DNA from: Gammaproteobacteria bacterium
Lineage (GTDB): Bacteria; Pseudomonadota; Gammaproteobacteria; HK1
Direction: 5' to 3'
Assembly (NCBI GenBank): GCA_011775625.1
Contig: JAABYT010000030.1
Coordinates: forward strand, 17,731-51,316
Length of the DNA stretch: 33,586 bases
Below, piece by piece: positions 602-22,375 of the stretch. Positions within the stretch are counted from its first letter, which is position 1. Each line of letters starts with the position of its first letter. Position numbers and translations under genes: made by a program. Below the pieces are notes generated by a model. It did not search any database. It worked only from the letters and a program-made list of their open reading frames with translations, and was not told the DNA's origin.

Positions 602-1555
602 GTGAACGACCTCACCCGACCGAGACTGGAGGACGAGTCTCTGGCCAATCGGGTCAGCCGCTTTCACTTGCACCAGCGCCTCGGCATCGAGGATGACGCC
701 GAGGCACTGGTTTTCGGGCAAGGCCGGACCTTCTTTCACATCGAGAACTGGCGCTTTGCCCACTCGGTCATGCGCGTGATTCTGACTCTGATTGGTCTGC
801 GCGGGCGCGCGCGGCGCAACGCCCTCAGCATCGAGGTGCGGCATAACGAAATTCCAGTACCCGGATTGCCGACTCGCTTTGACGGATTCAGACTGCTGCA
901 CCTGAGCGACATGCATCTCGACACACACGCTGACTTTGCCCATGCGCTGATCGAACGGCTGCAGGGACTCGAATACGACGTAGCGGTCATGACCGGGGAT
1001 TTCCGGGCACAGACCTTCGGTCCCATTGACCTCACCGTGGACGCAATGACTCAGCTGCGACCCCACTTGAAGAGCCCGATCTACGCCGTGCTCGGCAACC
1101 ATGACAGTCTGCGCATGGTCCCGCATTTCGAGAACATAGGCATCCGTGTGCTGCTCAATGAATCTGTCGAGATCGACCATGGCGGGGAGACCATCTACCT
1201 CGCCGGAATCGACGATCCACACTATTTTCGTGCCGATAACATGGAGAAAGCGGCCGAGGGCATTGCGCCCGACACCGTCTCTGTGCTGCTCGCCCACTCG
1301 CCGGAGATATACCGTCAGGCCGCGCATGCGGGATTCTCCGTGATGCTGTGCGGTCATACCCACGGCGGACAGATCTGCCTGCCCGGGGGGATTCCGCTCA
1401 TCGTCAATGCGCGCTGCCCGCGCCGTTACTGCAAAGGCGCATGGCGCTATCGCGATCTCGCTGGGTACACTTCAGTGGGATCGGGCGTTTCGATGGTCGA
1501 CGCGCGCCTCAACTGTCCGCCCGAAATAACGCTGCACCGACTGAGGCCAGCGTGA
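602..1555 (+). CDS. Calcineurin-like metallophosphoesterase (YaeI/LpxG-like)
   Basis: A 317-aa protein carrying the full metal-binding set of the calcineurin-like phosphoesterase family: D103-M-H105 in LLHLSDMHLD, D133 in MTGDF, N166-H167-D in LGNHD, H232 in LLAHSPE, and H252-T-H254 in CGHTHGGQ. The spacing and the GHTHGGQ ending resemble YaeI and LpxG-type enzymes that hydrolyse pyrophosphate or phosphodiester bonds, for example in UDP-diacylglucosamine. The real substrate cannot be read from sequence. About 85 residues precede the catalytic domain, including a hydrophobic or amphipathic stretch (VMRVILTLIGL) that may touch the membrane. The GTG at 602 was chosen because the -10 box lies at 544-549; it lacks a clear Shine-Dalgarno, so the start is uncertain. 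The stop overlaps the next gene start by four bases (GTGA), implying translational coupling. Confidence 0.85.
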   Translation: MNDLTRPRLEDESLANRVSRFHLHQRLGIEDDAEALVFGQGRTFFHIENWRFAHSVMRVILTLIGLRGRARRNALSIEVRHNEIPVPGLPTRFDGFRLLHLSDMHLDTHADFAHALIERLQGLEYDVAVMTGDFRAQTFGPIDLTVDAMTQLRPHLKSPIYAVLGNHDSLRMVPHFENIGIRVLLNESVEIDHGGETIYLAGIDDPHYFRADNMEKAAEGIAPDTVSVLLAHSPEIYRQAAHAGFSVMLCGHTHGGQICLPGGIPLIVNARCPRRYCKGAWRYRDLAGYTSVGSGVSMVDARLNCPPEITLHRLRPA

Positions 1556-2154
1556 AGGACGGTGTCATAAAGTTCGATCTGCGCTGGCAGCGCGGGCCGC
1601 CACCCGGGAACATCGACGCGCTCTTGGAGTGGCGTGACAGAATGCGCGCGGCAGAGCTCATTGGTGTTTACCCCGACGGCGTCGGATACGGAAACATCAG
1701 CATACGCGCCGGCGCGGCTTTCATAATTTCCGGCAGCGGCACGGGCGCGCAGCTGACGGCGCGCCGGGAGCATTTCACCGAGGTCGTCGACTACGACTTC
1801 AATACCAACTCGGTGACCTGTCGTGGCCCGGTACGGGCAAGCTCGGAATCACTCACCCATGCCGCTGTTTACGAGGCAGACCCGTCGGCGGCCGCGGTCA
1901 TTCACGTCCACCACCCGGCGCTCTGGGAGGCGCTCATCGGCAAGATTCCCACCACCGCCGTGGACATCGAGTACGGTACGCGGGAGATGGCCGAAGAGGT
2001 GATGCGCCTGTTTCGCGACACCCCCATCGCCGAAGGCAGGCTCTTCGTGCTGGGCGGGCACCGCGACGGCATCGTCGCCTTCGGTGAGTCGCTGCGGGAA
2101 GCGGGGACGAGGCTTCTCGACACGCTGCACACGGGCCCCGGCGAAGACCCGTGA
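1552..2154 (+). CDS. Class II aldolase/adducin-family protein
   Basis: A 200-aa single-domain protein of the class II aldolase/adducin fold, zinc enzymes that cleave or epimerise sugar phosphates. The expected zinc ligands are visible: H118 and H120 (with H121) in VIHVHHP and a distal H170 in GGHRDGIV. E99 in the SSES segment is placed where these enzymes keep their acid/base glutamate. The YGNISIRAG and ISGSGTGA segments correspond to the phosphate-binding loops (GNxS and SGxxTG). The GTG at 1552 was chosen because it overlaps the upstream TGA, lies behind a GAGG, and starts just before the family-like sequence. The substrate is unknown. It may be a sugar-phosphate aldolase, an epimerase or an MtnB-like dehydratase. 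The overlap with the phosphoesterase suggests the two act on related phosphorylated compounds, but that is inference. Confidence 0.82.
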   Translation: MKDGVIKFDLRWQRGPPPGNIDALLEWRDRMRAAELIGVYPDGVGYGNISIRAGAAFIISGSGTGAQLTARREHFTEVVDYDFNTNSVTCRGPVRASSESLTHAAVYEADPSAAAVIHVHHPALWEALIGKIPTTAVDIEYGTREMAEEVMRLFRDTPIAEGRLFVLGGHRDGIVAFGESLREAGTRLLDTLHTGPGEDP

Positions 2155-21689: not shown

Positions 21690-21929
21690 TGGGTGTGTGC
21701 AAAGACCGCGCTCGCCATGTGCCGGATCCCGGCGCCAGGTCGTGCGCCTGGAATGCCATGGCCGCAGTGTAGGGTAATCCTCGCGGTGGGCAAAAAGACG
21801 GTGTTCGAGCGACGGTGAAGCTGCCGTCGGAACCCTTGACAAGCCCCCGGCTGCAGAGCCCCCCGGGACTAACGCGCTGAATTGCAGCGGATTTCCCGGC
21901 CGCGGGTGAGGCCTCGAAACGTTCGGAGC

Positions 21930-21943
21930 GTGAACGGGTTCAC
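21930..21943. promoter_or_regulatory. Palindrome, possible enhancer-binding site
   Basis: GTGAAC-GG-GTTCAC is a perfect inverted repeat centred about 130 bases before the predicted sigma-54 transcription start, the usual distance for an activator of that sigma factor. The regulator is unknown. Confidence 0.4.
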
Positions 21944-22016
21944 ACAAGGTCGGCGAGCCGCTGTCGGAAAAGCTTACACCCGCACCGAGGGGCGCCGACC
22001 AGCCACCCGCAAGTCG

Positions 22017-22039
22017 TTGAAATGGGGCTGCCACTTCAA
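22017..22039. promoter_or_regulatory. Inverted repeat touching the sigma-54 promoter
   Basis: TTGAAATGG (22017-22025) and CCACTTCAA (22031-22039) form a nine-base inverted repeat with one mismatch, ending one base before the -24 element. It could be a binding site for a second regulator or a repressor. Confidence 0.35.
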
Positions 22040-22040
22040 G

Positions 22041-22057
22041 TTGGCATAAGGCTTGCT
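22041..22057 (+). promoter_or_regulatory. Sigma-54 (RpoN) promoter
   Basis: TTGGCATAAGGCTTGCT matches the sigma-54 consensus YTGGCACG-N4-TTGCW. The GG at 22043-22044 and GC at 22055-22056 are separated by exactly ten bases, as the factor requires. Predicted transcription start is near 22067. A Shine-Dalgarno (GGAGGA, 22082-22087) and a TTG start (22096) follow directly, and no sigma-70 elements are seen nearby. Confidence 0.75.
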
Positions 22058-22095
22058 TCGTTGCTACGCATACCGATGTGCGGAGGAACAGCTGC

Positions 22096-22317
22096 TTGCA
22101 CAACCGCATCACCGCGACGGAAGACCAGCTGATAGCGGAGATTAGCGGCCTCCAGCGCCGAGTTTCGGACGCGCCGGATAGCGGCGATTATCGCGCGCGC
22201 ACTGCGCGCAGTTATCTCAAGGAACTGTTGAGATTCAAACAGGAGATGCTGGAGCTAATCCGCTATCGGCGCGCCGGCAAGGTGGCACGCTGGCAGCGGC
22301 GCCCCGAGCTGCACTGA
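22096..22317 (+). CDS. Unknown 73-aa protein, sigma-54 controlled
   Basis: Not recognised. A 73-aa, basic, mostly helical protein beginning (M)HNRITATEDQLIAEISGL and ending GKVARWQRRPELH. The central part (YLKELLRFKQEMLELIRYRR) would make an amphipathic helix with clustered positive charges, as in small regulatory or nucleic-acid-binding proteins, but no family can be named. The TTG at 22096 was chosen because GGAGGA lies eight bases before it; an in-frame ATG at 22078 has no Shine-Dalgarno and lies only about ten bases after the predicted transcription start. The gene is bounded by a sigma-54 promoter and a strong terminator, so it looks like a complete one-gene unit. It could also be a small RNA with an incidental reading frame, though promoter, Shine-Dalgarno and terminator together favour a gene. 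Confidence 0.6.
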   Translation: MHNRITATEDQLIAEISGLQRRVSDAPDSGDYRARTARSYLKELLRFKQEMLELIRYRRAGKVARWQRRPELH

Positions 22318-22345
22318 ATCGTTTCGTGACATGTCCCTAGTGGCA

Positions 22346-22375
22346 CCCCGCTTGCTCTCAAGCGGGGTTTTTTTT
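22346..22375 (+). terminator. Strong intrinsic terminator of the small gene
   Basis: A perfect nine-pair stem CCCCGCTTG/CAAGCGGGG (22346-22354 with 22359-22367), loop CTCT, is followed by eight T (22368-22375). It ends the plus-strand transcript of the 73-aa gene. The last codons of the opposing rimI gene are laid over the right arm and the T-tract. Confidence 0.92.

Follow-up and report, generated by a model that had tools for sequence, protein, structure and literature searches.

The window (the whole stretch of DNA that was analysed, 33.6 kb) contains at 22017-22375 a genuine one-gene unit, in which a -24/-12 box, a Shine-Dalgarno (SD) sequence, a TTG-started frame and a strong terminator are confirmed. 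These limits were proposed in an earlier note on this DNA; the one-gene unit stands, but its start does not, because activator sites lie further upstream and the regulated unit therefore begins near 21825. The features of the unit are as follows.

21825-21841, plus strand: distal motif-1-like activator site CGTCGGAACCCTTGACA, the first conserved block past the upstream alignment break
21930-21943, no strand assigned: GTGA-N6-TCAC dyad with CRP/FNR-family-like half-sites, kept in all three genomes
21962-21978, plus strand: proximal motif 1 TGTCGGAAAAGCTTACA, at which PrsR is predicted to bind, separated by a 62-nt spacer from the 17-nt sigma-54 motif downstream
22041-22057, plus strand: sigma-54 -24/-12 promoter, 17-nt motif TTGGCATAAGGCTTGCT, from consensus match and orthologue conservation
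22096-22317, plus strand: TTG-started 73-codon gene for a two-helix basic protein, from dN/dS and an AlphaFold model
22319-22354, plus strand: 3'UTR block of 36 nt with no difference among the three genomes, candidate 3'UTR-derived sRNA
22345-22375, plus strand: intrinsic terminator with a 10-pair G+C-rich stem, a 4-nt loop and a U8 tail

Orthologous units are found in two other Gammaproteobacteria MAGs, adjoining a convergent rimI-like gene in each. The first genome, G001, is identical in sequence to MAG JAACFO01 bin.98 (loci L002 and L016), and the second is MAG JAPUGB01 A5-S04_114 (locus L017, genome G382); with the genome of origin (G000), they account for the only three orthologous loci known. 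The sequence upstream of the unit is unalignable between genomes, and because alignment stops before the distal activator motif, the conserved unit can be taken to begin there.

The -24/-12 box, TGGCATAAGGCTTGCT at 22042-22057, matches 10 of the 12 consensus letters. As five GG-N10-GC sites in the window score at least 10/12, such a match alone is weak evidence, and conservation in relatives is what decides. The orthologous sites read TGGCACAGCCTTTGCT (11/12) and TGGCACGGGGCTTGCT (12/12), which bears out the near-consensus RpoN promoter described previously; the GG/GC pair with its ten-base spacing and the -24/-12 context around it are preserved in both orthologues, as is the reading frame. 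RpoN is encoded in all three genomes bearing the unit. Transcription is predicted to start at about 22068, in agreement with the 22067 proposed before, and to give an mRNA of approximately 308 nt. An SD-like GGAGG or GGGAG and the TTG start, both already described, occupy the same position in all three genomes.

Predicted activator sites and the PEP-CTERM element

The PEP-CTERM element of proteobacteria has three parts, namely motif 1 (17 nt, with TTTACA at its end), a spacer and a 17-nt sigma-54 motif 2; motif 1 is repeated in some cases, and the PrsK-PrsR two-component pair shares the phylogenetic profile of the element (Haft et al. 2006, PMC1569441). The same arrangement is present here, with a 17-nt motif 1, a spacer of about 63 nt and a sigma-54 motif 2, and so are the single-gene unit, the long upstream intergenic region and, in the genome of origin, the PrsK-PrsR pair of that regulon. 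Motif 1 (TGTCGGAAAAGCTTACA) ends in CTTACA, one letter off the published TTTACA. It lies 62 nt from the sigma-54 motif, compared with a published spacer of 62.8 +/- 10.6 nt, and the sigma-54 motif lies 38 nt from the start codon, compared with 71 +/- 38.5 nt (PMC1569441). The distal site reads TGTCGGATTTCTTGACA and TGTCGGATTTCTTAACA in the relatives, and both motif-1 copies, along with the sigma-54 box, are conserved in all three genomes. Other motif-1 sites of G001 have the sequence TGTCGGAAAACTTTACA.

Between the two motif-1 copies sits the dyad at 21930-21943, which reads GTGAACGGGTTCAC in the genome of origin and GTGAACTGCGTCAC in both relatives, the centre being variable. There are two GTGA-N6-TCAC sites in the whole window, and on its sequence this one is possibly a CRP/FNR-family site that would give a second input.

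When the pattern of motif 1, spacer and sigma-54 box was sought across 55 genomes, 16 sites were found in eight of them and none with the reversed control. Seven of these eight genomes are PrsR-positive above cut-off, versus 12 of the 55 overall (Fisher p = 2.8e-5), and several of the sites, in genomes examined, are upstream of genuine PEP-CTERM genes. The genome of origin has one strict-pattern site besides this unit, upstream of a gene for a membrane-TPR (PLDc_N-like) protein; this gene is preceded by a strict PrsR-type element in both G000 and G001 (L022, L021). Two further loci merit description. On contig 202 of G001 (L034, minus strand), a double motif 1 (TGTCGAAATTCTTGACA and TGTCGGAAAACTTTACA), with the two-site layout of the window, precedes a 66-aa hydrophobic protein ending in RRVRL. 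On contig 66 of G052 (L027, about 1330-1595, minus strand), another motif-1 and sigma-54 promoter (TTGGCATTACGTTTGCT) drives a Gly/Met peptide of about 30 residues (MGGGMGGRGGMGGGG...), followed by a terminator-like stem; judged by its sequence, this peptide is another candidate PrsR-controlled micro-protein.

The genome of origin encodes PrsK (809 bits) and, next to it, PrsR (724 bits), both far above the curated cut-offs, and its PrsR retains GAFTGA. Given the PEP-CTERM cis-element at the promoter and the presence of PrsK-PrsR and RpoN in the same genome, PrsR is the likely activator, and the unit is very probably of the PrsK-PrsR/RpoN type. The earlier note's description of a stand-alone sigma-54 gene for an unrecognised protein is retained, but a better guess than the signals it suggested (nitrogen, motility or envelope stress) can be made, since the activator sites are laid out as for the PEP-CTERM/exopolysaccharide regulator PrsR. 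For a PEP-CTERM gene of Aquincola, rpoN1-dependence and a mapped -24/-12 start have been demonstrated (PMC9850573).

PrsK is present in two of the three genomes, those of the window and of L017. In G001, no PrsK was found above cut-off among all 50 candidates, and no PrsR among the 24 of 66 candidates that were scored, though the promoter and both motifs are kept. The PEP-CTERM proteins encoded in G001 make a gap in this draft assembly plausible, if unproved; the missing genes may otherwise have another activator in their place. The genome of origin yielded no PEP-CTERM protein at E <= 0.001. Activation by some other enhancer-binding protein of the NtrC type, recognising a PrsR-like sequence, would account for the retention of the activator sites in G001, and many related enhancer-binding proteins are encoded per genome. 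This explanation is nevertheless improbable, given the agreement of the motif 1 sequence and the 62-nt spacing with the PEP-CTERM element, and the co-occurrence of the pattern with PrsR in genomes where it also precedes PEP-CTERM genes.

The 73-residue protein

In a pairwise comparison of the relatives, dN is 0.08 and dS 1.55, and third codon positions account for 33 of the 46 differences; the low dN relative to dS and the third-position bias argue that the 73-aa protein is real, and on these comparisons the frame is almost certainly coding. The opposite reading, a pure sRNA gene in which function lies with the RNA and the 73-aa frame is incidental, could appeal to the fact that the most conserved segment of the unit is non-coding, but it is hardly credible for a frame under strong purifying selection, with a conserved start and SD, in which the only length change between orthologues is an in-frame 3-codon indel, and for which paralogous proteins with their own SD and ATG exist elsewhere.

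The coding frame is predicted by AlphaFold to specify a two-helix hairpin, with helices at residues 2-25 and 32-67 (pLDDT 81.6), and its C-terminus, ARWQRRPELH, is invariant in the orthologues. This end has no hydrophobic stretch, and the product differs from PEP-CTERM proteins in having neither a hydrophobic signal stretch nor a PEP-CTERM tail, being instead small, cytoplasmic-looking and helical. It had been described as a small basic helical protein of no recognised family, and this holds: searches of Pfam, NCBIfam and PHROGs returned nothing usable for the protein or its paralogues. A PDB sequence search gave short coiled-coil matches only, and a PDB fold search gave nothing below E = 0.001, only generic helical hairpins.

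The protein is absent from 369 genomes sampled across the class, its own excepted, and within the order the family is detected only in G000, G001 and G007 among 17 genomes. By these searches, the family is new and lineage-restricted in the genomes covered. Paralogues of about 61-72 aa, all without motif 1, occur in G000, G001 and G007. The WTED-type paralogues (L003, L006, L007, L018) belong to the same two-helix family, with 33-38% identity and a shared (T/R)ED-L-EEI...SYLRQLLKD pattern; they differ in having no motif 1, no conserved 3'UTR block and an ATG start, and three are in an unrelated neighbourhood. Those at L003, L006 and L007, which form one short family (MLNYIRWTEDRLREEIDKL...), are spread over three genomes. 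The G000 and G001 copies are convergent to a gene that resembles, by eye, the end of a multicopper oxidase, and their upstream region is conserved and non-sigma-54. A shortened copy on contig 1 of G007 (L078, 1480-1625, reverse complement; RWTKDALHGEIERLGERIS...NQML stop) is probably decaying. A match in G028 (L004) was judged to be chance, being a low-complexity frame beside a tRNA. With low confidence, the protein could be a small adaptor or regulatory protein made with the matrix regulon.

The 3'UTR block and terminator

The most conserved part of the unit is its 3'UTR, not its protein, which the earlier note overlooked. All 36 columns of 22319-22354 are invariant despite saturated synonymous sites in the adjacent gene. 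Prediction on the window's own sequence leaves the block mostly unpaired until the terminator stem, with no stable structure in the 27 nt before it. The terminator (z-score -3.4) extends into the convergent rimI-like gene at its 3' end, and the rimI stop codon lies inside the stem-loop. It had been called perfect; the terminator, with its 10-pair stem and U8 tail, is real, and across genomes it is invariant but for the loop and one stem pair, at which a wobble change in L017 (UA to UG) keeps the pairing.

In a pattern scan, the block is single-copy in G000 and G001; it is absent from the family's other genomes at up to 3 mismatches, no copy was found in viral contigs, and Rfam has no match in this region. 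A covariance model of the block scores 91-94 bits at home and 20-34 bits elsewhere. Among the weakly matching loci whose sequence was examined, none has a good match to the 27-nt pre-stem segment; they are therefore regarded as ordinary terminators. No further extended site complementary to the 3'UTR was detected in the genome of origin (18-mer, up to 3 mismatches), and a limited test of pairing between the segment and the start regions of prsK and prsR gave no significant result, 8 and 60 of 100 shuffles, respectively, being at least as good.

3'UTR-derived sRNAs combine a conserved stretch of 3'UTR with a U-rich Rho-independent terminator, as is seen here, and the pre-stem segment, predicted to be mostly unpaired, is well suited to be an antisense pairing region attached to such a terminator. 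The glnA gene is transcribed from an NtrC/RpoN promoter. Its mRNA releases the sRNA GlnZ from its 3'UTR (PMC9731577), and, as in this unit, the promoter is of the sigma-54 type and the conserved part of the 3'UTR runs into the Rho-independent terminator of the mRNA itself; the host gene and sequence of GlnZ are unrelated to those seen here, where the sRNA is a candidate. The chances that this unit gives rise to a 3'UTR-derived sRNA appear to be about even.

The conserved 3'UTR might instead act only in cis, on terminator efficiency, on mRNA stability or as an end shared with the convergent rimI mRNA, with no trans-acting sRNA and with the promoter and protein unchanged. The position of the block directly on the terminator, the rimI stop codon within the stem-loop, the lack of predicted stable structure in the 27 nt before the stem and the failure to find another genomic copy or long complementary site are all compatible with this. 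However, terminators and stability elements do not need some 25 invariant unpaired bases while the loop changes freely, and the stem, read on the minus strand, lacks a T-run after it and is thus not an intrinsic terminator for rimI; a purely cis role is possible but somewhat doubtful. A second sigma-54 promoter at 22341-22356 (TGGCACCCCGCTTGCT) was also considered as the reason for the conservation of the 3' block, as it is the top-scoring -24/-12 match in the window (11/12). It was rejected and is extremely unlikely, since its essential -12 GC is replaced by GT in both relatives (TTGTT in each) and transcription from it would start within the terminator's T-run.

A probable PrsK-PrsR unit with a possible RNA output

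The locus is probably a one-gene unit of the PrsK-PrsR/RpoN (PEP-CTERM/exopolysaccharide) regulon, producing a small protein mRNA and a probable 3'UTR sRNA. The promoter, the activator motifs with their spacing, the selection on the coding frame, the invariant 3'UTR and the PrsK, PrsR and RpoN genes are all present in the sequences; to these we would add PrsR binding, a function for the hairpin and sRNA activity, which we infer. In the proposed mechanism, the histidine kinase PrsK would activate PrsR, which would bind the two motif-1 sites at 21825-21841 and 21962-21978 and drive open-complex formation by RpoN-RNA polymerase at 22041-22057. Translation of the resulting transcript, about 308 nt long, would begin at the TTG at 22096 and yield the basic helical hairpin, a small protein whose family is new and restricted to this lineage, and the transcript would end at the strong U8 terminator. 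The 36 nt of extreme conservation that separate stop codon and terminator would most likely serve an sRNA, either released from the 3'UTR or contained in it, as its pairing region.

The PrsR targets reported to date are mainly matrix proteins. When the full-text literature was searched for PEP-CTERM combined with small RNA and RpoN, a single paper was found, on response regulators of Desulfovibrio. The unit adds to known kinds of systems; its protein family is unnamed, and it is a testable addition to the PEP-CTERM regulon, offering a clear cis-element and RNA for testing. We propose tentatively, at somewhat short of an even chance, that the exopolysaccharide regulon of PrsK-PrsR also acts post-transcriptionally, through a PrsR/RpoN-induced mRNA that encodes the new helical protein and also releases, from its 3'UTR, an sRNA of strictly conserved sequence. 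If true, this post-transcriptional arm would link matrix-protein expression to the repression of other genes, and a widespread system of biofilm and floc formation would gain a regulatory output beyond surface proteins.
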